DNA from: a virus
Direction: 5' to 3' (one strand)
Length of the DNA: 29,510 bases
IMG/VR virus record: IMGVR_UViG_3300035212_003046
Coordinates: 1 to 29,510 of that record
The translations under genes and the position numbers were made by a program. The notes below the pieces were generated by a model that did no database searches, had not been told where the DNA came from, and saw only the letters and a program-made list of their open reading frames with translations. Below are positions 4,691-24,467 of this stretch, one piece after another. Position 1 is the stretch's first letter, and every line of letters starts with the position of its first letter.

Positions 4691-7600
4691 ATGGCAATTC
4701 AAAAACCTAATCTTGCACCATCAATAAAATTCACTGAAACTGATTTAACTTTTACCACGAGAAATTTTGGTATTACTTCTCTCGGTATTTCAGGCGAATT
4801 TCCTAAAGGTAGAGCTTTTACTCCTGTAGCGATTGATAATGTCACTCTTTTCAAACAAGTATTTGGTGATAACAATCCTTGTAAATTCGAAGGAACACAA
4901 CAGCCTATATATGAAGGAGTTTACATTGCGAAACAATTTTTAACAGAATCTGACCAACTTTTCGCTTCGAGAGTTTTAGGTCTTACAGGATATGATGCAG
5001 GTGATGCTTGGGGGATTTCTTTCGGAGCAGCCCTTGACCCTGCAACTGTAGCAACTACTTCTACTTCAACTTTCACTGCGACAATCAATTATGTAAATGG
5101 AAGTGTTGGAAATGTAACATTTAGTAATCCTGTTCTTCAAGACTTATATGATGCAGGCGAAATTGCAGATGCATTACTTGGTGGAAGCACTTTGGTAACA
5201 GGTGACACTGTAGTTGTTGGAAATCAATTCATTGGAAATTGCGATACTTTTACAGGAGCAAGATTTAATATGACTGTAACTGATAAAGTTGAAACTTTCA
5301 TTTGTATCACAGGTGAAACTTCAGTAGGAACAAGTTTTGAAGTTCCAAGTGAGGTTCAAAATTGTGTTGTTCTTTACTCAGGTGGAACAATCACTTACGA
5401 TAGTACATTTGTAATTACAGTTGTAAATCCAATTGTAGTTCAGAATGTTGTTACAAATGAACTTACGGTTGTTCCTTCAGGAATTCTAACTTTGGTAGGT
5501 GGTACAATCACTCACGGTGTAGATGGTTCGGTTGTAATTGAAAGTGGTTCTATTTTCTTCCCGAATGGTGATGTTTTCACAGGTGGTGAATATAAAATAT
5601 GTGATTTGAATGATAATGTTGCAGTTTACGATTGTGATACAATTGATGGTATCAATTATACACTTACAACAGGAACTACAATTATCTATAATACTGTAAC
5701 TTCAGGTACAACTCAACAGATTGTATCTCAAATTCCTTCAGGACTTGTTCAAATTGATTTCTCAGGAACTGTAATTGAGCTTTCAGGTTCAGCTTATGCA
5801 CAATATGATAATATGGTTGTAGCATTGCTTCGTTCTTTTGCCGAATACAATGGAGATGAAGTTTTGAACTTCCAAGTAGAAGGTAATGTAATTTCAATTG
5901 AATCAATAGATGGTGGCATCATCAAACCTTTGGATGATTTCTTAATCAAAGGTACAAAAACTGATGGGTCTACTTTTGAATTCAATGTTTCTTTTGATAA
6001 ATCTAAATCTAACTACATCTTGAGAGTATTTGGTAACTTTATACCTTGTTGCCCTAATAATCTTCCATTGTATGTAGAAGATATTTTTGAAACAACTTTC
6101 AATAATCTTTTGGCTAACGGATTGATATACTGTATCAAACCTTCAATGTGTTACATTAACACTTTAAATAACTATAAAGAACCTTATCAGGGTGCAATGA
6201 CTCCTTGGATAGTTTCTGAATTAAGAGGTAATCGTGTATACAGATTGTTTAGAATTCACACATTCTCTGATGGAAATGCTGCGAATACTGATATCAAAGT
6301 TTCAATTACTAATATCAGACCTGATGCAAAAACTTTTGACATTCAAGTTCGTTCTTATGGTGATACAGATAAAAAACCTGTTGTTCTTGAATCTTATTCA
6401 AGATTGACATTAAGAGAGCAAGATAACAACTTCATCGGAAGAAGAATTGGTACTGTTGATGGTAACTATGTTCTTAATAGCAAGTATATTATGATTGAAT
6501 TGGCTGCAGAATGTTTGGATGAATCATTCCCTGCAGGTTTTGAAGGCTATCCTGTAAGAGATTACGATTGCATGATTAACCCTCAAATGATTTACAAAAC
6601 ACAATATGCAATAAATGATAAAGTTCGTCAAACATATCTTGGTTTCAATGATGTGGTTGGTTATGATGCGGATTTCTTTGATTACAAAGGAAAGCCTGCT
6701 AACGCTCTATTGCCTTATTGGACAGGAACTACACATGGTTTCCACTTGGATACTAATGCATCAGCAGTTACAGTTGATGGTGTAGGTACAGTTAACTTTG
6801 AAACAGGTGCTTATGGTTTCCAAAATGAAACTGATATCGTAGGTACAGCTTATGAAAAGATTGAATCAAGAAAATTCACAGTGCTTGTATTTGGTGGCTT
6901 TGATGGATGGGATATTCACAGAAAAACAAGAACTAACACAGATTTATATACAGTTAATGGTTCTTTAGGGCAAAAAGGTCTTACTTCAGGAGCTTTTGAT
7001 GTATATAGTTCTGAAAATATAAATGAAGGTCAAACTGTAATCAATTCTGACTACTATGCTTACTTAGAAGGAATTAGAAGTCTTCGTAACAGAAACGAAT
7101 TTAGAATTAACTTGCTTGCAACACCAAATGTTAATACAGCAGAAAATTCAAATCTTGTTGAAGAAGCAATTGATATGTGTGAAAACGAAAGATGTGATAC
7201 CTTCTATGTTACTACTACTTTGGACACAGATGCTTCAGGACAAGTATTACTTCCAAATGATGCTGTAAGTATTATTCAAGACTTGTATAACAGCTCTTAT
7301 GCAGCTACTTACTTCCCTTGGGGACAATTCCTTGATGAAGTTAACAATGTTTACCTTTGGTTGCCTCCAACTGCTGAAGTAATGCGTATCTTTGCTTTGA
7401 CTGATAAAATCAGAAGACCTTGGTTCGCAGGTGCAGGTTTTGTTGTAGGTGAAACTCAATTCAAACAGGCGAGAAAGAAACTTAGACAAGATGAAATGGA
7501 TGTTTTGTATGAAGGTCGTATAAACCCTATCTCAACATTCAGACAAGCTGATGGAACTTCACCTGTCTTTGTGTTTGGTAACAAAACTCTTCAAATTGCA

Positions 7601-7924
7601 GAATCTGCTCTTGATAGAATCAATGTACGAAGATTGTTGTTGTACGCTCAACGTTTGATTGAAGATGTAAGTTTACCACTTCTTTTCGACCAAAATGATG
7701 AAACTGTAAGACGTAAATTCGAAAACAAAGTGAATCCAATTCTTGCAAATATCAGAAATGAAAGAGGTATTTTCGCATTTGAAGTTCAACTTGACCGTTC
7801 AAATGAAGCGTTTAATTCAAATGAAATGAAAGGTAAAATTGGAATTCAACCAACAAGAACCCTTGAATATATTAACATTGAATTTGTATTAACACCTGCA
7901 GGTGCATCTTTCCAAGATATCTAA
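4691..7924 (+). CDS. Tail sheath protein (T4 gp18 family), enlarged
   Basis: The 1077-aa protein is the contractile sheath subunit. The N-terminal 110 residues (MAIQKPNLAPSIKF, then GEFPKGRAFTPVAI and QPIYEGVYIAKQFL) and the whole second half match the family pattern: FRIHTFSDGNAAN, FDIQVRSYGDTDKKPV, SRKFTVLVFGGFDGWD, and the conserved C-terminal domain ending NERGIFAFEVQLDRSNEAFN and EFVLTPAGASFQDI. That C-terminal domain packs on the tube and contracts. T4 gp18 is 659 aa; the extra length lies mostly at about residues 115-440, a Thr/Val/Gly-rich, beta-repeat-like stretch (for instance SGGTITYDSTFVITVV) with several cysteines, probably exposed on the outside of the tail. It has its own late-type motif and is followed after three bases by the next gene. 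Confidence 0.95.
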   Translation: MAIQKPNLAPSIKFTETDLTFTTRNFGITSLGISGEFPKGRAFTPVAIDNVTLFKQVFGDNNPCKFEGTQQPIYEGVYIAKQFLTESDQLFASRVLGLTGYDAGDAWGISFGAALDPATVATTSTSTFTATINYVNGSVGNVTFSNPVLQDLYDAGEIADALLGGSTLVTGDTVVVGNQFIGNCDTFTGARFNMTVTDKVETFICITGETSVGTSFEVPSEVQNCVVLYSGGTITYDSTFVITVVNPIVVQNVVTNELTVVPSGILTLVGGTITHGVDGSVVIESGSIFFPNGDVFTGGEYKICDLNDNVAVYDCDTIDGINYTLTTGTTIIYNTVTSGTTQQIVSQIPSGLVQIDFSGTVIELSGSAYAQYDNMVVALLRSFAEYNGDEVLNFQVEGNVISIESIDGGIIKPLDDFLIKGTKTDGSTFEFNVSFDKSKSNYILRVFGNFIPCCPNNLPLYVEDIFETTFNNLLANGLIYCIKPSMCYINTLNNYKEPYQGAMTPWIVSELRGNRVYRLFRIHTFSDGNAANTDIKVSITNIRPDAKTFDIQVRSYGDTDKKPVVLESYSRLTLREQDNNFIGRRIGTVDGNYVLNSKYIMIELAAECLDESFPAGFEGYPVRDYDCMINPQMIYKTQYAINDKVRQTYLGFNDVVGYDADFFDYKGKPANALLPYWTGTTHGFHLDTNASAVTVDGVGTVNFETGAYGFQNETDIVGTAYEKIESRKFTVLVFGGFDGWDIHRKTRTNTDLYTVNGSLGQKGLTSGAFDVYSSENINEGQTVINSDYYAYLEGIRSLRNRNEFRINLLATPNVNTAENSNLVEEAIDMCENERCDTFYVTTTLDTDASGQVLLPNDAVSIIQDLYNSSYAATYFPWGQFLDEVNNVYLWLPPTAEVMRIFALTDKIRRPWFAGAGFVVGETQFKQARKKLRQDEMDVLYEGRINPISTFRQADGTSPVFVFGNKTLQIAESALDRINVRRLLLYAQRLIEDVSLPLLFDQNDETVRRKFENKVNPILANIRNERGIFAFEVQLDRSNEAFNSNEMKGKIGIQPTRTLEYINIEFVLTPAGASFQDI

Positions 7925-9528: not shown

Positions 9529-10023
9529 ATGGCTAATTTACTTCTTCAAGCACCATTAAAATACGAACCGAAAACACAGAATAGATGGGTGTTATTGTTT
9601 CCTGATGATGTCGGAATCCAAACATGGGCGGTTAAAAGTGTTGATACTCCTAAAATTACAATGGAAAAGAAAACTATTCAATTTTTGAATACCGAAACTT
9701 ATTTCACTGCAAGTTACAAATGGGAGGATATGAATGTGACCATTCGTGATTTTATTGCTCCATCTCAATCAGAAGCTCTTATGGAATGGGTTCGCCTTCA
9801 TGCTGAATCTGTTACAGGTCGTATGGGTTATAACGTTGGTATGGCAAAGGATATTATTTTACAATCTCTTGACCCAACAGGTGTTGCTACTGAAGAGTGG
9901 TTGTTGAAAAATGTTATTGTTACAGGTTCTGTTGAATTTGGTTCATTTGATTATACAGGTTCTGAGATTCGTGAATTGAAATTCACAATGTCTCCTCAGT
10001 ATTGCGTTCACTTATTCGGTTAA
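9529..10023 (+). CDS. Tail tube protein (T4 gp19 family)
   Basis: The 164-aa protein matches the gp19 length (163 aa) and pattern: an N-terminal APLKYEPKTQNRWVLLFPDD with the conserved 'NRW' strand, VKSVDTPKI, YFTASYKWEDMNVTIRDF (about 59-76), a helix ALMEWVRLHAESVTGRMGYN, then the beta hairpin LKNVIVTGSVEFGSFDY and the terminal strand EIRELKFTMSPQYCVHLF. These subunits stack as hexamers to make the inner tube through which DNA passes. The gene has its own late-type motif and is flanked by a terminator on each side, consistent with a separately tuned high-copy transcript. Confidence 0.95.
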   Translation: MANLLLQAPLKYEPKTQNRWVLLFPDDVGIQTWAVKSVDTPKITMEKKTIQFLNTETYFTASYKWEDMNVTIRDFIAPSQSEALMEWVRLHAESVTGRMGYNVGMAKDIILQSLDPTGVATEEWLLKNVIVTGSVEFGSFDYTGSEIRELKFTMSPQYCVHLFG

Positions 10024-10128: not shown

Positions 10129-10914
10129 ATGGAATTCGAAAAAAATGTAATGCAACAACCTAATCCTTTTCAAGGATATGAACCACAATCTGAAACATTT
10201 CATCTACCTTCAAAAGGAATGTTTTATCCTGAAGTGGAAGGTCAAAGAATAACGAGTGTAAAAGTTTATGATTTGGTTACTCAGGATGAAAATATTCTTT
10301 TATCACAACCTTTGATTGAATCAGGAGAAATGATAGATGTTCTTTTGAGAAAAAAAGTTGTGTCTCCTTATCCTGTTGATAAATTCACAACAGGAGACAG
10401 GTTATCTCTTTTGATTTATATCAGAGCTACAATGGAACAAATGTACAAAATTCGTGTAGTAGACCCTGAAACAGGAAATCCTTTTGACCATGATGTGGAT
10501 TTAATGAGTTTGAATATGAAAGAAATGGTACATCTTCCAAATCAAAATGGGCATTTTGAATTTAAACTTCCTAAAGATGGAAGAATTGTTACCTTTAGAC
10601 TGCTTACAGGTGAAGACGAAAAAATTATACGTCAAAAGGAGAAAAAAGAACAGCAATTGAAAGGTAACTCTGAATCTTTTTATAAAATTTTTAGATTAGA
10701 GCAACAAATTGTTTCAATTGAAGGTATCACTGATGTATTTGAAAAAGCAAAATATATCAGAAATATGAAAATTATGGATAGTAGAAAACTTATAAGTTTT
10801 ATGGATGAATGTATACCTACTATTGATTTTAATATTGAGGTGTCCGCTCCAAGCGGAAATCGGTTTTCTGCAAACATCCCTTTCACCGCTGAATTCTTTT
10901 ACCCCAATATATAA
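10129..10914 (+). CDS. Baseplate hub assembly protein, T4 gp26-like
   Basis: The 261-aa protein contains ETFHLPSKGMFYPEVEGQRI (about residues 23-42), the 'LPSKGxxY' opening typical of gp26-type hub-assembly proteins of contractile phages. It is followed by VYDLVTQDENILLSQPLIESG, VLLRKKVVSPYPVDKFTTGDRLSLLIYIRATM (about 72-103) and a beta-rich domain around RVVDPETGNPF. A charged helix KEKKEQQLKG and a C-terminal ISFMDECIPTIDFNIEV complete it. In T4, gp26 takes part in building the central hub of the baseplate. The small ORF that follows in the +1 frame is its usual partner type. The position between tube and tape measure supports a tail-assembly role. Confidence 0.7.
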   Translation: MEFEKNVMQQPNPFQGYEPQSETFHLPSKGMFYPEVEGQRITSVKVYDLVTQDENILLSQPLIESGEMIDVLLRKKVVSPYPVDKFTTGDRLSLLIYIRATMEQMYKIRVVDPETGNPFDHDVDLMSLNMKEMVHLPNQNGHFEFKLPKDGRIVTFRLLTGEDEKIIRQKEKKEQQLKGNSESFYKIFRLEQQIVSIEGITDVFEKAKYIRNMKIMDSRKLISFMDECIPTIDFNIEVSAPSGNRFSANIPFTAEFFYPNI

Positions 10915-13229: not shown

Positions 13230-16200
13230 ATGGCAACATTATTATCTTTAATAGGCGAAAGTGAAAGATTTCGTATAAAGCCAAAAAATCTGCAACCGAC
13301 AGACGATGTTACAGAGAATGGTTTTTCATCTTATCTTGATGATTATGGCACTGTTGCGCTTCAAGACTATACAAATGATACAAATGTAGAGTCTCCAAGT
13401 GTATTAGATATTGGTACAATTGCAATAGCAGACCGAAAGGATTACAATGTTTTTCCTCAAGATGTTTACAGTGAAGCTGAAGTAGAAAGGATAGATGTTT
13501 CTGTTATTGATATGCCTTCTATTGAGGATATAAGTGAAGACATATATCTTGGTAACACTATTTATAACAAATATGCAAATTTAGAATATATTCCATTTGA
13601 AGTTGAGGATGCTGTTGCAGTTCAGACTTCAACTGAAGATTATGGCGAATATATCGCAAGAGTTTTAGCTAATCTTGAACAAAGAGGAAATAGTTTAGCT
13701 GATATATTTATTGGTCAATGGAACAGAGATGATTCTCCAATAGGAGTTATTGGAGGTCAAGCTTTGAATGTAGCATTGCAGAATCAATTCAAAGATGGTG
13801 TTGAAAGGAAAATATTCAGTATTGTAAATAAAAGTCTTCTAAATGTAATTGAAGGTGGTTCTATTATAAGACAAAATTATAATATTACTACAGGAAAAAC
13901 ATTCTTAGGAAGGGCTGCTGAATTTTTGGCTAAATTAGGGAGTTTAGAAAACCCTATATCTTACCTCCCTGAGAACGTTTTTAATTTCAATAGACCAAAA
14001 GTTGTTAACAATGGAAAAGTCACATATACAGGTTCAGGATTATCTTATAGTGAACAGGTGAATCTTTTATTAGAATATACAGGATTAGGTCAACAGAAAC
14101 AATTATTAAATCTGTTGGAAATGAATATATATAAAGATAAAATTGAAGGTAGAAAGAAGACTTTAGATGCTAATTTATATATTCCTTATACTCATTTTAA
14201 TCCAACTTCATTAAATGCTTCTAATTTTGTTAAAGCCGAATCTGAATATTATGAACCTTATGGGGTTGTAAGTAGACATAAAAATATTGAAAGTTTAAAA
14301 GACCCTTTTGATAAACAAATTTTTTCCGATGGATATTGGTTTGTATGGACTAATGATGAAAGAAGAGGTGATATAGGATGGACTAATAAAAAAAATAACC
14401 CTTTTAAAGATAAACCTCAATCACTTTTATTTAAAACACAAGAACTTTTAAAGGAAGGTAGCGGTATTAATGCATTTTTAGATTTAAGTGCAAAGTCTTT
14501 TGATGAAGTTATTGATGGTCAAACAAAAACTATTTCAAGAGGTGATGGAACTACTGCTTCTGCAGATGCTTTTGATGAAAATGGAACACGCATTCAAACG
14601 AAAGGTGAATATTTTCGTGTATGGACTAAAAGAATAGGATATAACCGACTTGAAAGGGCATTAAGACATCGAGGATTAGATAATGGTGATAAAAGAAGTG
14701 TTTTAAATGATAACGGTATTCCAAATTATGCTCCAACTACAAGAGAGGCTAATGGACGGAATGTTACCTCAGATACTCTTATCAAGAGATATATGTTTTC
14801 TCTTGAGAATCTTGCATGGAATGACCATATGGATGATTTGCCTGAATGTGAGCAAGGTGCAGGAGACCCTTTGACAGGTACAAGGGGAAGAATTATGTGG
14901 TTTCCACCATATGACTTAGATTTTGATGAGAATGTTAGTGTAGATTGGAATCCCCATTCTTTTATAGGCAGAGGTGAAAAATTTTATACTTATAATAATA
15001 CAGATAGAACAGGAAAACTTTCTTTTTCAATTTTAGTAGACCATCCCGATATTGTTCATTTAGAAGAACTACGAGGAAAAAGTACTCAATATTGGGAAAG
15101 ATATTTCAAAGGTGATAAGGCAATTGAAAAAGATGCATTAGATAAGTACAATGTACAAAAAAAGATTTCTCAAAACGAACTTGATGCATTAAATGTAATA
15201 AAAAAACCTATTCCTCCGAAATATAAGAAAGTTACTAAGACTATTAAGACTGTAAAAAGAGTAGAACAAGAAAAGAAAATTGAAGTAAAGAAAAAAGAAG
15301 AACAAAAGGGATATGGTGAAACTGTTTTGAGCATCTATTTCCCAAATAATGATACTGCAGTAACTCGTTCAACTTTTGTTCCTAACAGAGCTTCTGTAGA
15401 ACCTGATTCTATTCCCGATAAATCAATCAATTTTGCTGAAATGAAATTGAAAAATATTGGCTATGAAGATGCAGGTAGAGCTGATGGTTTTGTTTCTTCG
15501 GATGGTTATACTATTAAAACTTCAAGTGGACTACAGTATAAAGATTCTAAAGGAAATGTTGTAAATAAGGGTGGTATTACTACTCAAGCAACTTATAATT
15601 TCGGTAAAATCTTTGTTTATAGTGGTGGTCCATGTAAAACATATAATAATGAAGCTTATCCTGATGATACGAATTTTAAATTAAATGAACCATTTTATTT
15701 TCAATGGCAAAAGAAATTTGTAGATGCTATAAGTGGAAAAACAAAAGTTCAAGTGACTTTTATTGGAAATGCTTCAAAGCCTGCAGCTGCTGAAGGATAT
15801 ACTAATACTATATTATCAACTGAAAGAGCAAATAATGCTGCAAATTGGTTTGATACAAATGTTAAACCTTTATTGAAAAATTTGAATATAAATGTAGAAT
15901 TTGCACCTCATTTGAAAACATACAAATCCGACCAAGAGGATACTCAAAAGGCTGAACAAGCTGAAAAAAATACAGGAACTGAACCAAAGCCTGTTTTTTG
16001 TAAAAAATGTGATAGACCTAATTTAGAGCCATGTAAAAGAAGTAGAAGAGTCGATATATTTATAAAGGATTTAAGTCCTGCAAATACAGAACCTAATCCG
16101 CAGCCTGAAATATCAGATAATACTATTGAAGAAATTCAAACTTTTGAGGAATATGTTCTTGATACAGATGAAGGAAATGTAGACCCTGAAAACGATACAA

Positions 16201-17429
16201 CTCCGAATATTGATGAGAGTGTTATTAAGAAATTGATATACACCGAATGTGACTTTTTCAAATATTTGGAAATAAATGACCCTATTGCTTATCAAACAAT
16301 AAGTGAAAAAATAAAATATTTTACTCCTGCATTTCATTCAATTACTCCTCAAGGATTTAATTCAAGGTTGACATTTTTACATCAATGTACAAGGCAGGGC
16401 GAATCTATAGGATTAGATGGAGTTGATAATGTAAAAAATCTTGCTTTTGGTAGACCTCCTGTTTGTATTTTACGAATTGGTGATTTCTTCCATACTAAGA
16501 TTATTATAGAAAGTATGAGTATTACTTATAAGAATAATAACATTATGTGGGATTTAAATCCCGAAGGAATTGGAGTGCAACCTATGTATGCAACTATTTC
16601 TTTAGGAATAAAAATTCTCGGTGGGATGTCGATGACTGCACCTATAAATAGGTTACAAAATGCTTTAAGTTTTAATTTTTATGCTAATACTGAAATGTAT
16701 GATGCAAGAGCTGATAGTGTTGTTTTTCAACAACAATTCAATGCTGCAGGGGAATTAGATGAAAATGCAACTTATGGTACTCCAAAAGCAGCTAAAATTG
16801 TAGATGGTATCAAGCTTTCTTCGTTAATTAAAATTAGTGATGCAAAAAGACAGGAAAGATTAGCAAAATTGAGGCAAGATAGCCGTTTGACATTACAAAA
16901 TTCAACAGATGCAGTTGTCCCTACAGACCAAATTGAAAATCTTGGTACTGTAGAATCAATATTGGAATTCAAGAAGAGAGCAGGTTTACCTTTAACTGAA
17001 AAAGAAAAAATTGTTAAAAAGGTTGAAGATGAAACAAAGGATAAATTTCAATTGATAAATTTAGACCCTATTGACAGTAGGAATATAAAGATTACGATGA
17101 CAGAAAATTTAAAAACTGAAAATTCTTTATTAAACCAACAATCTAAAAATTTGTATTCAAACAGATTTAATTCAAAAAATCCTGATGATGTAGCATTCTT
17201 GAATAATTTATTAAAAAAGGATGAGCCTTTTATTCCTTTTGACCCTAAAAATCCTGAATCAGTTGCACAATTTAATAATTTTATAGAATCTGTTAGTCAA
17301 TACTCTCAAGCAAGTTCGAGTAATCCATCACAAATAACAGAAGAAAATAATAAAAAAACTGCAGAAGAATATTTAGGTGCATTCCAAAGGGTTTGGTTAA
17401 ACAGTAGAGGAGAATTTATAAAAATATAA
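13230..17429 (+). CDS. Large baseplate structural protein with an OmpA-like domain
   Basis: The 1399-aa protein has no T4 equivalent of this size. The N-terminal 600 residues are mixed and unrecognised. A Lys/Glu-rich linker (about 650-690) leads to a domain at about 785-950 that reads as OmpA-like: FGKIFVYSGG, VTFIGNASKPAAAEGYTN, then ILSTERANNAANWF (Arg866) and RSRRVDIFIKDL (Arg939, Arg940). The LSxxRAxxxxxxL and RRVxI signatures are those of OmpA C-terminal domains, which bind peptidoglycan. A cysteine cluster CKKCDRPNLEPCKR directly precedes RSRR. The region at about 1030-1165 (PPVCILRIGDFFHTK, WDLNPEGIGVQPMYA, LQNALSFNFYANT) resembles tube-fold baseplate proteins of the gp48/gp54 kind. 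It is followed after three bases by the LysM-like gene. The baseplate role is likely; the domain limits are by eye. Confidence 0.75.
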   Translation: MATLLSLIGESERFRIKPKNLQPTDDVTENGFSSYLDDYGTVALQDYTNDTNVESPSVLDIGTIAIADRKDYNVFPQDVYSEAEVERIDVSVIDMPSIEDISEDIYLGNTIYNKYANLEYIPFEVEDAVAVQTSTEDYGEYIARVLANLEQRGNSLADIFIGQWNRDDSPIGVIGGQALNVALQNQFKDGVERKIFSIVNKSLLNVIEGGSIIRQNYNITTGKTFLGRAAEFLAKLGSLENPISYLPENVFNFNRPKVVNNGKVTYTGSGLSYSEQVNLLLEYTGLGQQKQLLNLLEMNIYKDKIEGRKKTLDANLYIPYTHFNPTSLNASNFVKAESEYYEPYGVVSRHKNIESLKDPFDKQIFSDGYWFVWTNDERRGDIGWTNKKNNPFKDKPQSLLFKTQELLKEGSGINAFLDLSAKSFDEVIDGQTKTISRGDGTTASADAFDENGTRIQTKGEYFRVWTKRIGYNRLERALRHRGLDNGDKRSVLNDNGIPNYAPTTREANGRNVTSDTLIKRYMFSLENLAWNDHMDDLPECEQGAGDPLTGTRGRIMWFPPYDLDFDENVSVDWNPHSFIGRGEKFYTYNNTDRTGKLSFSILVDHPDIVHLEELRGKSTQYWERYFKGDKAIEKDALDKYNVQKKISQNELDALNVIKKPIPPKYKKVTKTIKTVKRVEQEKKIEVKKKEEQKGYGETVLSIYFPNNDTAVTRSTFVPNRASVEPDSIPDKSINFAEMKLKNIGYEDAGRADGFVSSDGYTIKTSSGLQYKDSKGNVVNKGGITTQATYNFGKIFVYSGGPCKTYNNEAYPDDTNFKLNEPFYFQWQKKFVDAISGKTKVQVTFIGNASKPAAAEGYTNTILSTERANNAANWFDTNVKPLLKNLNINVEFAPHLKTYKSDQEDTQKAEQAEKNTGTEPKPVFCKKCDRPNLEPCKRSRRVDIFIKDLSPANTEPNPQPEISDNTIEEIQTFEEYVLDTDEGNVDPENDTTPNIDESVIKKLIYTECDFFKYLEINDPIAYQTISEKIKYFTPAFHSITPQGFNSRLTFLHQCTRQGESIGLDGVDNVKNLAFGRPPVCILRIGDFFHTKIIIESMSITYKNNNIMWDLNPEGIGVQPMYATISLGIKILGGMSMTAPINRLQNALSFNFYANTEMYDARADSVVFQQQFNAAGELDENATYGTPKAAKIVDGIKLSSLIKISDAKRQERLAKLRQDSRLTLQNSTDAVVPTDQIENLGTVESILEFKKRAGLPLTEKEKIVKKVEDETKDKFQLINLDPIDSRNIKITMTENLKTENSLLNQQSKNLYSNRFNSKNPDDVAFLNNLLKKDEPFIPFDPKNPESVAQFNNFIESVSQYSQASSSNPSQITEENNKKTAEEYLGAFQRVWLNSRGEFIKI

Positions 17430-17432
17430 TTT

Positions 17433-17750
17433 ATGGCAAATTTTAATAGATATGCAAAAATAAGTATAAATGGTGAAACTAAGTTAATGCCATTTATAAG
17501 AATAAGAGAAAAGTCAACTGATAAAACATTGGTTTGGAATAGTGAGTTGCATCGTATGGATATTTTAAGTCAAAGGTATTATGGACTTCCTACTGAAGGG
17601 TGGTTAATCATGATGGCTAATCCTGAATTTGGTACAGATGAATTTGATATTCCTGATGGGACTATCATAAGGATTCCATTTCCATATACTACTTCTATTC
17701 AGTCTTTCATTGATGATATGAATAGATTTGATAACAAATTTGGTTTTTAA
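17433..17750 (+). CDS. LysM-like baseplate protein (T4 gp53-like)
   Basis: The 105-aa protein has the pattern ELHRMDILSQRYYGLPTEGWLIMMANPEF (about 37-65) followed by FDIPDGTIIRIPFPY (about 71-85). 'R-x-D-x-L-S-x-x-Y-Y-G ... W-x-I-x-x-A-N ... I-P-x-G-x-x-I-R-I-P' is the LysM-fold signature found in gp53 of T4 and gpX of P2, which sit around the baseplate hub. It lies between the two giant baseplate genes, three bases after the first, and 28 bases before the hub gene without an own promoter motif, so it belongs to the same transcript. Confidence 0.8.
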   Translation: MANFNRYAKISINGETKLMPFIRIREKSTDKTLVWNSELHRMDILSQRYYGLPTEGWLIMMANPEFGTDEFDIPDGTIIRIPFPYTTSIQSFIDDMNRFDNKFGF

Positions 17751-17778: not shown

Positions 17779-20700
17779 ATGGCAGGTTTTGAAACAATCT
17801 CTAATGAGAACTTTTTTACAGTTGTAGTTGACCCTAATGGCTTAAATAAAGAAAATGTTAGGCATGAAGATTTATTTATTTTTGTAGACTTTAGAGCAAT
17901 GCCTAAGAGTCGTTCAATAGTAGAAACGGATGGGACTATTACTAATGATATTTTTGATTCAAAAGGAATTAGTTTTATTGCTTCAACTACGCAAAATGGA
18001 AAAGAATATCTTACAACAAATTATACTAATATTGGAGGTAAACAAACGAAAGAAAAAGAGGCATTTGGTATTACAGATATAAAAATAGAATTTGGAAAAG
18101 ATTTAGCTCCGATTGTTCAAATAAAATTTGTTGATGCAAGAGGTGCAGGATTATTTAATGGGTATGAAACTGTAGATGAAAAAGGTGTATTGTCTAATGA
18201 TTCATATTTTTCCACTTTTTTTAGTTTACCTTATCCTGTTTTCCAATTAACAGTAAAAGGTTATTATGGGAAAGCTATTACTTATTGTTTAAATTTGATG
18301 AAATGGAATATCACATTCAATGCAGATAAAGGTGATTTTGAAATTGATGCGACTTTTCAAGGATTTACTTTTGCATTTCTTGCAGATATTCTAATGAGTC
18401 ATGTAATTGCAATAACAACTTCCAAAATTGGGCAAGAAGCTCTAAAAAAAGAAGGAGTGATAAGTATCACTGAATTGGTAGGGAGATTAGGTCAATTAAC
18501 TCAGATAAGTGAAGATTTTAAAAAAAGTAGCTCTTCTTATGAAGAATTAAAATTTGTCAATAGTTTATTGTTAGATAGAATAGATAAAATTATTGATGTT
18601 GTAGGTCAACCAATGACTAAATCTAATTTTTCTACTTTTGGAAATAAACTCCCTATACCTCAATTAAAGTTAAATACTGACCAAATTTTCGTAAGAGATG
18701 TTGGAGTTATTTCAGAAGAAAAATCTGTTGAAATAAAAGCTATAATTGAAGACCTTGACAAATATATAAAGGAGTATAATGATTTTATAAAAACTAATCT
18801 AACAAAGTATAGTTATGGAAATCAATACAAGATTGATAATTTTAATATCAATATACCTTCAATTTCTTATTTAATTGACGATAGTAGTACAAATAAAATA
18901 ATTACAGAAGCTTTAAAGGATGGTTTATCTGCAGACCCAAATATTACTACAACAGGTGCTTTAAGAAGTAGATTAAATCTACCTGAAGATTCAAAAAAGA
19001 AATTTTATATTATAGATTTTCATCCATTCAGAAAAGAACTTGCTGAAATAAAAGATGAATTGACAAAAAAGAAAAATGAATTAGAAAAGAAGGTAAATGA
19101 TGATTTAAATGCCAATATTGAAAATCAAATTGGATTAAAATTAAATATTCAAAATGTTTTCAATATTCTAACAGGAAATATTGATGCCTATTTAAAAGTT
19201 ATTTATGACCATGCAAGAGCTGCAGATAATCCTGATATTCAAAAGGAACGTGTAAAGGCTCTTAGGGGTGGCAAAAATGATATCAATGATGGCGTTAATA
19301 GGGTATTCCCTTTCCCTGCAGTTTTTGATTCAAAAGAAGATAAAGAAATTTGGATTGGAGATATTGTAGGTGAAGATAATCCCTATTTTCCCGAAATAAA
19401 TTTGGTTAGAACTACTATCAATTCATTTATTACTTCAAACGGTAAAAGTGCTAATAAAAATACAACAGATAATTCTAAAAATACTGTTGCCATTTCAGGC
19501 GATAGTTGGATTCCTATGAATCCAACTGATTATTCACCTATACCTTATGAAACGATAAATAAACAAAATTTCAATGGCAATCAAATACCTGCAGCATTAG
19601 CTACAGAAATTGTTAAAAGAGCTACAAATGCTTATAATAAAACAGGTCATAAAGAAACTACATTTAATTATATTTCTCAATTTGATGCAGCTTTTTCTTT
19701 CAGTAAAACAACTGAATCTGTTATTAAAAATATTATAAATAATACTGATTCAAATACTTTTGCAGATTCTGTTATTAATAGTGCTACTACAGGTACGGAT
19801 GTTACTTTAGGGAATTCTACTGTAACAAAAAATACTAAAGTTGAAAAAACAGATAATACTACAATAACCACAACTACTACTGAAACTGTTACAGTTATTG
19901 AGACAGTTGAACCTGTATTAGTATTACCTGATGATTATATCAAATATATTCTTTCATTTGAGAAAGCTTATAATTATCCAAATTATGGATTGAATGCATC
20001 AGACCCTAATGGTTCTTATGGAACAAGTTTCCCTAATAATAAGTTTCCTGCTAATTTTAGTATGAATGATGCCATTAATCTTTATAATACTGCATTTTAT
20101 ATTCCATTTTTAACGGATGTTCCTGAAGGATTAAAACCTATTCTTTTAGATATTTGTGTAAATCAAGTTGACCCTTTAGGGATGTTGATTGCAGCTGCTA
20201 ATAGGTTGGATGATGCTATTAATATGCCATTAAGCTCTATAAGAATAAGATGGTTTGGAGGTTCAATGATTTATACAGTTCCACAAAATACTATACCTTT
20301 TCCAAGTCAATATACTACTACAACTTCTTATAGTGATTTTCAAACATATAAGCCTGCTATTTTTGCTTTATACAATGCTAATCCGAAAGCTTTAATTGAT
20401 GAGCTTTCAAAAGTGAGATTAATGTATTATAGTGAAGCAAGTGGAAAGGAAAAAACAGGCAGAAATAAGGTTACATTTTTTACCGAATGGAGTATTCGTA
20501 CTTTTGCTATGGCACAATTCGCTAAAGATATATCTATAAATAAAGCGCAAGAATATAATTATTATCATGGCATAAATTCAGAATTTTATAAAAGAGGTAC
20601 TAATTTTTCTTTTGAATTAAAAAGTGCGAAAGATTCAGAAGAAAGCCTTCTTTGGTTTAATAAAGTTGGCAATAATGCAACTCCATATCTATCAAATGTA

Positions 20701-23601
20701 AATCCTGAGCTTAATACTAATAAAAATGTAAATACAACTTTACCTATTACAGATGTAAATAAAATCATTTTATTAGGTACAAATCGTTTTACTGATGATG
20801 ATACACAGATTGCAGCCTTTAATGCTCAAAATAAAAGAGATTTATCTTCATTTGTAACAACTAAGATAACTGAAACAAAACTTTCTATTGAAGATATTTT
20901 AATTCCTAAGAAGTTTAAAGATGTCCATAGAAGTTTAGATAAGAAGACTTATGTTACAAAAGGTGATATAACCGATTTAATTTGGAAAGATGATGTTAAA
21001 GCTTCTATAAAGAAGTTTCATAAATCAAAAACAAGTAATGACTTATTACCTGATAAATCTTATGCAGGCGTAATAATCTCTCAAATAAATGATTTATGTG
21101 TATTTGATGGTCAAAGAAACCCTTTAATAGATTTTGTAAGTACTCCTGATGTGAATTCAAAGTATACAAATTTATTAAGGAAGTATATAGGATTTGGACT
21201 TCTAAAAGGTGTAGATACAGATAAGCTTCTTTTTAACCAATATTATTATGTAAATTCTAATATTAATGAAAAAGCTTATATGTTTCTTTTGACTATTCCT
21301 CTTGAAACTATTTCAGATTTTAATAAGATTCTGAATATGGGTGGAATATATAAAATGACAAAAATTCAATTGGCTTGGGTTGCAGCACAGTTTTGGAGAG
21401 CTAAGTTGATAAGAGATACAAAAAAAGATGTTTTTGATAATATACTATCGCAAATAGCTAATTTAGTTGGAACTAATTCTACAGAATTGACTCCTGAACA
21501 AATTCAAATATATTTGAATGGATTATTTGATTTACAAAAGAGTAAGCTTAGTTACCTCCCAAATCTTGATGATTATAGTGAAGTGTTTATTCAAAAGCTT
21601 TCTAAATATTATGAAGATTGGATAACTAATGACTTCTTTTATCCTCAGAATTATATGTTGTCAGATTTTAATGCTTCAAAAATAAAATTGGAGGATTATG
21701 TAACACAATATCATACTTTCTTTTTATTATCTGCAGAATCCCCTCAATCTAAAAGTCATGAGGATTTTAAATTTTATTATAATAAAGTATTGGAAACTTT
21801 AATTGAGCCTGTTGATATTCATGTGAATGATATAAATGCTATCAAAAAAACTTTGAAGAAAGAAGATATCTTATCACAAGAAATTCTAAAACAATATTTA
21901 GTTAGTTGGATAAATACATACAAGTCTTTTGTAACTCAAGAATTAAAAAATCCAAAGAAAGAAAATACTGTAAATACAGGTACTGAAACATTTTATACAA
22001 CAGATAAAGATACAAAAGTTGCAGTTTATAGACATTACAAAAATCTTTATGATAAATGGATAGGTGGAACTCTTGATGGAAAGATATATAATCTTTGTTC
22101 AAATAGTGGGACTGCACAAAGCGGAAGAAAGCTTATTGACAGATTCCATTTTGTGGATGCAGCATTTAATCCAATAGGAGATAAGGCTGTTATAGACCCT
22201 AAAGCTCTTATGAAGTTATCTACACAATCTTCTGAAGATTTTCATATATTCTTAGGTTCATTAGCAAGAGATTCAAATTTTTTATTACATTCTTTACCAT
22301 CTTCTATTCATTATAAAACTCCTCAAGATGGACTTGATATGTGGAAGCCATATACTACAGCTAATGATGCTAATAGTGGTGCTGCATATATTTTACAATA
22401 CAGGGGTGGGAATTCTAAACATTTAGATTTAGGAAAAAAATCTCTTTATGTTAATGATGGATTTGATTTTAGAGAATCTGATATTGGAAAAATTCCTGAT
22501 GCATTCAAAAAAAGAATTCCTATGAATGCAAATAATGTTCCAAAAGATAAAGATAAATATAATTTGGTTATATTCCGTGTTGGATATGCTGACCAAAATC
22601 AATCTATTTTTAAATCAATAACTTTAAATCAATCTGAGCATAAAGAAACTGATGAATACTATAAAGCATTTGCGGATGCTATTGATAATAGAGGTGGAAC
22701 AAAGCCAATGTATAAAAAAGTAAACTTATATAATTTATTTGCTATAAGAAGTTATAAATGTAGTGTTACTTGTTTAGGTAATATGATGGTTAATGCATTA
22801 AATTATTTCCAATTAGATAATGTTCCTTTTTTTCATGGAGCATATCAAATTGCTAAAGTGAGCCATAGTATTTCTGCGCATAATATTGAAACTACCTTTG
22901 AAGGATATAGAATGCCAAGATTTACTTATCCATTTATTGATAGTGTAATAGCTTATGTACAAATACCTCTTTCAGAAACTTTATTTAGTGCAGACCAAAA
23001 AGCAAAACCTGTTATTAGACCATTAGGAGGAAAAAGTTATTCTGAAGCTGAGATAACAAGTGCCAATAGTACTAATTTAGTTGGTAGTGATAAACCTTTA
23101 AGAAATGATTTAGAAAGTACTGTAGCTTTAATGCATCCAAGTGTTCAAAGTACATTTAGAGCATTTTTTCAAGATGTTGAAACAATATTAGGTTATAAAA
23201 TCGTATATGTTTCTTCATATAGAGGTTGGGCAGATAGCTACAAGGTTTGGAGTACAAATTCTGAAGTACAAAAGTGTTGTCAGCCTGGGCAGGATTACCA
23301 CTTCTTCGGTCTTTCCGCAGATATAACTATATCAAAAGATAATAAAGTTTTAGGTTTAAATACACCAAAAGCTGATTGGGAAGCTACAGGTATTAGAGAA
23401 ATCGCAAGAAAATATAAAATGCGATGGGGTATTGATTTCGCATTTGGAACTGTAGGAGACCCTATTCACTTTGATTTACCATTACATCCAATGGCTGATT
23501 TAGTTAAAAGAGCTAAAGAAAAGTATGGTAGCTTAGAAAAAGCTGAAGGAAATAAAATGGATTTTACAGGATTACCTACGCAAACATGGAAAATTGCTTA
23601 A
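17779..23601 (+). CDS. Giant baseplate hub protein with GH108-like and M15 peptidase-like domains
   Basis: At 1940 aa this is the largest gene. The N-terminal 220 residues (MAGFETISNENFFTVVVDPN, VDARGAGLFNGYE, FQLTVKGYYGKAITYCLNLM) and a later segment near 1650-1720 (RSYKCSVTCLGNMMVNALNY, VPFFHGAYQIAKVSHSI) look like hub proteins of the gp27 type. Coiled coil is likely at about 420-450. Residues about 715-810 resemble glycoside hydrolase 108 muramidases: ILSFEKAYNY with Glu728 at the catalytic place, DAINLYNTAFYIPF, and LLDICVNQVDPLGMLIAAANRL. Residues about 1790-1920 resemble M15 zinc peptidases: SSYRG (Arg1815), HFFGLSADIT (His1841, Asp1848) and PIHFD (His1897). The protein would build the hub and cut the wall during injection, as gp5 lysozyme does in T4. 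GH108 is the weaker call. Confidence 0.8.
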   Translation: MAGFETISNENFFTVVVDPNGLNKENVRHEDLFIFVDFRAMPKSRSIVETDGTITNDIFDSKGISFIASTTQNGKEYLTTNYTNIGGKQTKEKEAFGITDIKIEFGKDLAPIVQIKFVDARGAGLFNGYETVDEKGVLSNDSYFSTFFSLPYPVFQLTVKGYYGKAITYCLNLMKWNITFNADKGDFEIDATFQGFTFAFLADILMSHVIAITTSKIGQEALKKEGVISITELVGRLGQLTQISEDFKKSSSSYEELKFVNSLLLDRIDKIIDVVGQPMTKSNFSTFGNKLPIPQLKLNTDQIFVRDVGVISEEKSVEIKAIIEDLDKYIKEYNDFIKTNLTKYSYGNQYKIDNFNINIPSISYLIDDSSTNKIITEALKDGLSADPNITTTGALRSRLNLPEDSKKKFYIIDFHPFRKELAEIKDELTKKKNELEKKVNDDLNANIENQIGLKLNIQNVFNILTGNIDAYLKVIYDHARAADNPDIQKERVKALRGGKNDINDGVNRVFPFPAVFDSKEDKEIWIGDIVGEDNPYFPEINLVRTTINSFITSNGKSANKNTTDNSKNTVAISGDSWIPMNPTDYSPIPYETINKQNFNGNQIPAALATEIVKRATNAYNKTGHKETTFNYISQFDAAFSFSKTTESVIKNIINNTDSNTFADSVINSATTGTDVTLGNSTVTKNTKVEKTDNTTITTTTTETVTVIETVEPVLVLPDDYIKYILSFEKAYNYPNYGLNASDPNGSYGTSFPNNKFPANFSMNDAINLYNTAFYIPFLTDVPEGLKPILLDICVNQVDPLGMLIAAANRLDDAINMPLSSIRIRWFGGSMIYTVPQNTIPFPSQYTTTTSYSDFQTYKPAIFALYNANPKALIDELSKVRLMYYSEASGKEKTGRNKVTFFTEWSIRTFAMAQFAKDISINKAQEYNYYHGINSEFYKRGTNFSFELKSAKDSEESLLWFNKVGNNATPYLSNVNPELNTNKNVNTTLPITDVNKIILLGTNRFTDDDTQIAAFNAQNKRDLSSFVTTKITETKLSIEDILIPKKFKDVHRSLDKKTYVTKGDITDLIWKDDVKASIKKFHKSKTSNDLLPDKSYAGVIISQINDLCVFDGQRNPLIDFVSTPDVNSKYTNLLRKYIGFGLLKGVDTDKLLFNQYYYVNSNINEKAYMFLLTIPLETISDFNKILNMGGIYKMTKIQLAWVAAQFWRAKLIRDTKKDVFDNILSQIANLVGTNSTELTPEQIQIYLNGLFDLQKSKLSYLPNLDDYSEVFIQKLSKYYEDWITNDFFYPQNYMLSDFNASKIKLEDYVTQYHTFFLLSAESPQSKSHEDFKFYYNKVLETLIEPVDIHVNDINAIKKTLKKEDILSQEILKQYLVSWINTYKSFVTQELKNPKKENTVNTGTETFYTTDKDTKVAVYRHYKNLYDKWIGGTLDGKIYNLCSNSGTAQSGRKLIDRFHFVDAAFNPIGDKAVIDPKALMKLSTQSSEDFHIFLGSLARDSNFLLHSLPSSIHYKTPQDGLDMWKPYTTANDANSGAAYILQYRGGNSKHLDLGKKSLYVNDGFDFRESDIGKIPDAFKKRIPMNANNVPKDKDKYNLVIFRVGYADQNQSIFKSITLNQSEHKETDEYYKAFADAIDNRGGTKPMYKKVNLYNLFAIRSYKCSVTCLGNMMVNALNYFQLDNVPFFHGAYQIAKVSHSISAHNIETTFEGYRMPRFTYPFIDSVIAYVQIPLSETLFSADQKAKPVIRPLGGKSYSEAEITSANSTNLVGSDKPLRNDLESTVALMHPSVQSTFRAFFQDVETILGYKIVYVSSYRGWADSYKVWSTNSEVQKCCQPGQDYHFFGLSADITISKDNKVLGLNTPKADWEATGIREIARKYKMRWGIDFAFGTVGDPIHFDLPLHPMADLVKRAKEKYGSLEKAEGNKMDFTGLPTQTWKIA

Positions 23602-23612
23602 ATATATAAAAT

Positions 23613-24467
23613 ATGAATACATTAAAATTTTCAGATATAAAAGTTAAGGAGTTTAATAGATTATTAAAAACAAATTTTAATCCTAATTCGCCTAAAAAAT
23701 ATGGTACAACTTCGTACCAAAGTTTTGCATGGGTTAAAAGTGCTTTAAATGAACTTGGGGTTACTTTTGATGATGAAATTAATTCTGCTTGGGCGTTATT
23801 TTCTAAATTGGATAATATTAATATGAGATATATTAAGAAGGCTAAATTTAGAGAAGGTGTTCAAAACGGATTTGATAATAATACTCTTGCAAAAGTAATA
23901 CCTGATGGTTCAATTGTATTTGGTTATTTTGTAGGTAATCCTTATGTATTTAGGTCTATAGATGAAATGTTTGCTTTAAATTTAAGTTTAGGAATCGTTA
24001 AACAGCTTTTTTTAAGACCTTATTTGAAATTAGATGATATACCAAATGTAAACGAAGATACAAATGACTTTGGATGGTATGATTCAACTCCAATCAGTCA
24101 AATGAAATTTTCTGAAGAAGGATTTAAAACAAAATGGGATAAAGTTAAAAATAAAATCCTTATTGGTAAAAAACTACCTTTTGTTCCTATTAACCATATT
24201 GGTATATTTGCAAATGGACATTTATTACATTATTGTTCAGATATTTTAGTAGAACCATCAGATTCTTTAAGAATTGTTGCATATTATGATTTTAAAACCT
24301 TATATTTGTTAGATGCAGTTAAAAGGTTCGGAGAATCTATTGTGAATTCTGAAATAGTACAAACAGGTTTAGCACTTGCTGCAACTGCTACAAATAGTAG
24401 TGAAAGTTTAACTAATTTAAAAGATGCTTCTGATATTATTAATATAAGTAAAAAATTTAACATTTAA
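23613..24467 (+). CDS. Hypothetical baseplate-region protein, 284 aa
   Basis: Not recognised. It begins MNTLKFSDIKVKEFNRLLKT and has a central VIPDGSIVFGYFVGNPYVFRSIDEMF (about 89-114) and later PFVPINHIGIFANGHLLHYCSD (about 193-214). The second segment has a faint look of NlpC/P60 or YiiX-type papain folds (His in a 'HIGIF' strand), but I see no suitable catalytic Cys before it. The C-terminal 40 residues are Ala/Ser-rich and helical. It follows the hub gene by 11 bases, and overlaps the next gene by one base. A tail-associated role is inferred from position only. Confidence 0.75.
   Translation: MNTLKFSDIKVKEFNRLLKTNFNPNSPKKYGTTSYQSFAWVKSALNELGVTFDDEINSAWALFSKLDNINMRYIKKAKFREGVQNGFDNNTLAKVIPDGSIVFGYFVGNPYVFRSIDEMFALNLSLGIVKQLFLRPYLKLDDIPNVNEDTNDFGWYDSTPISQMKFSEEGFKTKWDKVKNKILIGKKLPFVPINHIGIFANGHLLHYCSDILVEPSDSLRIVAYYDFKTLYLLDAVKRFGESIVNSEIVQTGLALAATATNSSESLTNLKDASDIINISKKFNI

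Follow-up and report, generated by a model that had tools for sequence, protein, structure and literature searches.

The tail gene cluster and its 1940-aa open reading frame

The DNA analysed here (the window) is a complete IMG/VR virus record of 29.5 kb. On its plus strand we identified an open frame of 1940 aa with an ATG start (Table 1), confirming the chain that the original prediction had delimited. The frame belongs to a tail gene cluster in the order sheath, tube, gp26/51-like hub protein, tape measure, gp53-like wedge and 1940-aa ORF, and the wedge gene lies directly upstream of it.

The sheath ORF (1077 aa) gave tblastn matches in 2573 phage records, among which T4-like ones were prominent. 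Known sheath profiles match only its residues 782-1074, and a large N-terminal part falls outside the match. The tail tube ORF matched T4 gp19 at 1.1e-4, and the phrog_150-type protein showed 26% identity to the hub subunit of Immutovirus (Flavobacterium phage immuto). The phage is T4-like. Based on the sheath match to immuto and the low GC, its host probably belongs to the Bacteroidota. In the same cluster, residues ~700-960 of a 1399-aa baseplate-region protein (13230-17429) resemble an OmpA-type peptidoglycan-binding domain, for which the Pfam scan gave no match. A cellular origin or an artefact was ruled out for the 1940-aa ORF by the flanking tail genes and by its relatives, found on IMG/VR contigs as long as 184 kb.

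Table 1. Positions in the window of the tail genes and of the parts of the 1940-aa protein
Feature	Position	Strand	Evidence
Tail sheath protein	4691..7924	+	phrog_23 tail sheath, E=4.9e-44; tblastn to T4-like sheaths
Tail tube protein, gp19-like	9529..10023	+	phrog_4542 tail tube, E=1.9e-16
gp26/gp51-type baseplate hub protein	10129..10914	+	phrog_150 baseplate hub, E=4.1e-8
gp53-like baseplate wedge / LysM-type protein	17433..17750	+	phrog_7145 baseplate wedge, E=1.7e-5
1940-aa baseplate hub-position protein	17779..23601	+	open frame; tail-cluster position; core kept in relatives
N-terminal hub core, residues 1-676	17779..19806	+	48-57% identity to six relatives
Insert, residues 677-992 (316 aa)	19807..20754	+	only 16-28 residues there in relatives; seven-hub alignment
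GH108-like domain, residues 715-930	19921..20568	+	hhalign; HMM shuffles; seeded AF2 model
Glu728 codon, counterpart of the invariant Glu in the GH108 EGG motif	19960..19962	+	hhalign with A3; alignment A10
C-terminal hub core, residues 993-1757, with hub-like final domain	20755..23049	+	relatives 44-57% identical over 1016-1757
M15 (M15C-like) peptidase domain, residues ~1776-1912	23104..23514	+	Pfam/PHROG matches; endopeptidase alignment
His1841, predicted zinc ligand	23299..23301	+	invariant column, A8
Asp1848, predicted zinc ligand	23320..23322	+	invariant column, A8
Asp1894, predicted catalytic acid position of DxxHF motif	23458..23460	+	invariant column, A8
His1897, predicted zinc ligand	23467..23469	+	invariant column, A8
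284-aa protein, homologous to L007 hub C-terminal module	23613..24467	+	alignment A11, 30% identity

The 1940-aa ORF occupies the position of a T4-like hub in the tail cluster. Furthermore, the final domain of its core matched the final domain of Rm378p069 (P0008) of Rhodothermus phage RM378 (P=3.4e-4, reached by 0/60 shuffles). The whole protein gave no match in the phage database, and a scan of genome contigs with the hub domain returned no relatives. When PDB sequences were searched with a profile of the hub domain, only chance matches and none to gp27 were found, and the N-terminal domain scored within shuffles against immuto, RM378 and Mel-JY01 proteins. With both the gp27 match and an N-terminal signal absent, gene order and the match of the final domain are what the hub role depends on. 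These two support the hub role in the original prediction, whereas the sequence match to gp27 was not obtained. The data thus support the 1940-aa protein as the putative hub of a T4-like tail, with a presumed hub fold.

A C-terminal M15 peptidase domain

The M15 relationship proposed for the C-terminus was found in profile searches. The domain alone matched VanY (E=6.7e-4) and M15_4 (E=6.6e-4) in Pfam, both under the curated cut-offs, and phrog_2649 (endolysin, E=1.5e-5) in PHROG. Its nearest phage proteins are mostly L-alanoyl-D-glutamate peptidases or lysins (best E=6e-4), and a scan of viral contigs with the domain alone found no relatives.

We aligned the domain with five L-Ala-D-Glu endopeptidases (alignment A8, six rows). 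The three residues named in the original prediction, His1841, Asp1848 and His1897, are at the stated positions and are correctly chosen, as the predicted zinc ligands; D1894 and R1815, likewise invariant in A8, can be added. A profile of A8, in which the hub domain is one of six rows, finds Ply500 2vo9 (4e-32) and LysB4 6akv. Like the M15C endopeptidases (Ply500 2VO9, LysB4 6AKV, Riemerella phage lysins), the domain has the H..D..D..H pattern and the conserved Arg, but it is ~22-29% identical to them and is fused to a hub-position protein, whereas they are free enzymes. Judged by its sequence, the C-terminal domain is firmly assigned as an M15 peptidase with all zinc and catalytic residues present. 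It appears nearest to the M15C L-alanyl-D-glutamate endopeptidases, and from them we infer the exact bond that it would cut. The GC content of the linker and M15 segment is 0.337 versus 0.28 in the core, which is consistent with separate acquisition but is weak evidence for it.

A GH108-like insert within the hub core

The two parts of the hub core are separated by an insert that is present in the 1940-aa hub only; all relatives covering the site (6/6) are without it. A Thr-rich linker is visible at its residues 685-713. The original prediction placed a GH108-like region around Glu728, which is at the position given. Pfam and PHROG scans of the insert yielded nothing usable, with no match to PF05838 (GH108), and a scan of viral contigs with the insert alone found no relatives. 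A match to farnesyl-diphosphate synthase (E=0.08) was dismissed as chance.

We compared the insert with ten GH108 phage lysins by hhalign. The alignment was collinear over 157 columns and placed E728 on the invariant Glu, with a pairwise P of 0.0064 that is uncorrected for the choice among the several profiles, aligners and domain boundaries tried. Its score was 24.5, compared to a maximum of 22.3 in 200 shuffles. With three of four GH108 profiles, the HMM score of the insert exceeded 3000/3000 shuffles, and non-self decoys cut from phage proteins scored lower. In a MAFFT alignment with 20 viral GH108s, the insert showed 13-23% identity and E728 was invariant. The insert appears to share with the GH108 muramidases (N4 gp61, Brucella SagA 7DNP, TtsA 6V40) a collinear two-part layout with E728 on the catalytic Glu. 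It differs from them in its low identity to viral GH108s, in having no Pfam match and in the loss of EGG.

The catalytic loop of the insert is degenerate, with EGG changed to EKA and the GG.T motif mostly gone, and this change makes its activity uncertain. The insert may be a GH108 descendant that lost catalysis and now has a peptidoglycan-binding or structural role, with M15 as the only working hydrolase. Such a loss would fit the distribution of the profile agreement, which is best in the helical middle, with a conserved Asp/Asn (LDICVN), and in the PG_binding_3-like C-terminal half, and not in the catalytic motif. A degenerate GH108-like protein is also encoded in the genome of one relative, L027. 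However, E728 and a nearby Asp (742) are both kept, and GH108 enzymes of Bacteroidota vary in the same loop. We consider a loss of catalysis unlikely.

AF2 modelling from the single insert sequence gave a pLDDT of 30 and was unusable. A later model, built on an alignment with GH108 rows, reached a pLDDT of 64 and a pTM of 0.60. In Foldseek, two GH108 structures ranked on top with weak E-values (0.16 and 2.0), and VIA-align placed four GH108 structures (7dnp, the Brucella SagA, Z 12.2; 2ikb 9.1; 2is5 8.8; 6v40 8.3) far above the next row (4.2). Since the alignment contained GH108 rows, this model demonstrates compatibility and is not independent proof.

The resemblance could also have arisen by chance in a helical domain of another kind, for example one for host binding or assembly. 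Profile comparison gave scores of just 7-10 bits, the fourth profile, in which close viral GH108s predominate, left the insert at noise level, and hhalign with two further profiles fell within or near the shuffle or decoy range; the missing Pfam match points the same way. The placement of E728 on the catalytic Glu in an alignment that is collinear over the full length, the 3000 shuffles exceeded with three profiles and the structural matches of the seeded model are against coincidence, which we regard as slightly less credible still than a loss of catalysis.

Taken together, GH108 ancestry of the insert is probable. The collinear alignment and three of four profiles favour the GH108 assignment at Glu728, while PF05838, the fourth profile and the change of EGG to EKA do not. 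That the insert is a working glycosidase falls a little short of an even prospect.

Two other GH108-related proteins were observed. The degenerate GH108 relative from the 184-kb L027 genome (L195:1342-2022) is a stand-alone protein of 226 aa without a recognisable EGG motif. It scored 22.3 bits in the genome search, over the cut-off, and 20.8 bits in hmmscan, just under it. In a Bacteroidota genome (L199), a GH108 plus PG_binding_3 domain lies inside a predicted 1374-aa open frame.

Different predicted hydrolase modules in related hubs

Scans of viral sequences identified six useful hub relatives (L002, L003, L004, L005, L007 and L027) and one fragment (L006). These records overstate the number of independent lineages, as L003 and L004 are near-duplicates over much of the hub and L006 and L005 are almost the same.

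We found that the C-terminal module differs between these hubs. Five relatives (L002, L003, L004, L005, L027) end in a different M15 type, with DxxHF and HAYGxAxD motifs. M15_4 was over the cut-off in the hub C-termini of L002, L004, L005 and L027, and phrog_17001 matched those of L002, L004 and L005 with E ~1e-22 to 1e-28. M15 is thus fused in frame to a structural protein of the baseplate cluster in the 1940-aa hub and in five relatives. The combination of a GH108-like and an M15 module was in none of the relatives found.

The hub of L007 ends in a cysteine-hydrolase-like module (L007:10901-11518) with a putative catalytic Cys in the motif YCARWVK and a His. The 284-aa protein encoded downstream of the 1940-aa ORF is homologous to this module. 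Stand-alone copies have replaced this Cys by Ser but retain the His in 5/5 cases; from these residues, the Ser-bearing 284-aa protein is possibly a pseudoenzyme. A PDB search with a profile of the 284-aa family gave chance matches only, and the cysteine-hydrolase label is therefore by motif only. Elsewhere in L007, visual inspection alone suggests that the gene for a DnaB-type helicase (L007:18779-20821) is interrupted by an intein-like sequence (CRIYTPNG... to ...LTHN).

Since close relatives keep the scaffold and swap or lack the cutting parts, the hub resembles a drill head with interchangeable bits rather than a machine of a new kind. We tentatively propose, with somewhat less than even confidence, that in a clade of T4-like phages, probably infecting Bacteroidota, the hub is an open platform with two sites at which unrelated wall-cutting enzymes are swapped among close relatives. 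The middle site would take the GH108-like module and the end one of two M15 types or the cysteine-hydrolase-like module, so that glycan and peptide cutting could be combined on one hub. In most relatives the cysteine-hydrolase-like module would lie next door, as a separate Ser-for-Cys protein.

Comparison with known systems

T4 carries a single lysozyme, on gp5. The window resembles the T4 gp27/gp5 system in its T4-like gene neighbourhood and in having a hydrolase at the tip of a contractile tail. Unlike in T4, the hydrolases are fused into the hub-like chain and not placed on a separate spike, a peptidase is present, and the candidate glycosidase is GH108-like and not of the T4 lysozyme type.

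The tail gene order of Flavobacterium phage immuto is as in the window, and its protein KNV73_gp033 likewise follows a gp53-like gene; the two wedge proteins match weakly. KNV73_gp033, annotated as a carboxypeptidase, has a C-terminal VanY/M15 domain above the cut-off (E=6.6e-10). It differs from the 1940-aa hub in its length (938 aa) and in having no detected middle hydrolase, and the similarity between the two cores was undetectable with the profiles used. An M15 tail on a protein in the hub position has therefore been recorded before, in a cultured and sequenced phage.

In RM378, the gene order is unlike that of the window, and Rm378p069 shares only the final domain described above. It has no C-terminal peptidase, and its middle stretch is not GH108-like; in mid-chain it was matched weakly by phrog_28672 (metallo-endopeptidase, E=3e-4) and by phrog_90 (endolysin, E=6e-3). 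In the published RM378 genome, this protein (L011:36568-39420) is annotated as hypothetical only.

Two cutting activities are combined in phi29 gp13, HydH5, the phiMR11 virion lysin (VAL) and CwlP, four proteins of phages that infect Gram-positive hosts and have other kinds of tail. One half of phi29 gp13 is a glycosidase. The structural case is gp13 (3CSQ), with an M23 half (PMC9662197). HydH5 of phiIPLA88 has CHAP and LYZ2 domains (PMC3665550), phiMR11 VAL shows CHAP as well as lysozyme activity (PMC6024856), and CwlP of SPbeta has muramidase and DD-endopeptidase domains according to work cited in PMC9662197. In each of the four, a single tail-associated or virion chain bears both a glycosidase and a peptidase, but the domain families are others (CHAP, LYZ2, M23). 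A glycosidase and a peptidase on a single virion-associated chain are thus established knowledge, and the novelty implied by the original prediction was overstated, given phi29 gp13, HydH5, CwlP and the immuto protein. What is new is the location of the modules in a T4-like protein at the hub position, and the variation of these modules between close relatives at two sites. The dual-hydrolase hub as originally proposed is, as a whole, partly supported.

A possible role of the hub in cell wall penetration

We propose that a contractile tail of T4-like type has a central hub enlarged by two exchangeable peptidoglycan-hydrolase modules that act jointly on entry, a model for which we see the chances as evenly balanced. 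Linkers would hold a GH108-like muramidase domain in mid-scaffold, and an M15C-type L-alanyl-D-glutamate (or related) endopeptidase would sit at the C-terminal end. Contraction of the sheath would push the hub through the outer membrane, where the two modules could cut glycan strands and stem peptides and open a local hole, through which the tube would reach the inner membrane. In this model, the hub fold, the glycosidase activity of the insert and the cooperation of the two modules where injection takes place are presumed, whereas the ORF, the M15 domain with its full set of ligands, the insert, the gene order and the differing modules of the relatives are demonstrated. T4 gp5 is cleaved after assembly. 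It is very unlikely that the M15 domain serves as the endolysin for host lysis, or is set free by cleavage, with no role on entry: its nearest relatives are free endolysins and no other endolysin was recognised among the part of the 29.5-kb fragment's proteins that was scanned, but M15 is in frame on a baseplate-cluster protein in this hub, five relatives and immuto, and the analysis identified no cleavage site.

Provided that both domains work, a single protein at the centre of the baseplate would open the wall through both sugar and peptide bonds. Closely related phages with swapped cutters on a kept scaffold would then form a natural set for tests of the fit between entry enzymes and host walls, and could supply muralytic domains. 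Several functions can also hide behind the one annotation of a large hub gene.
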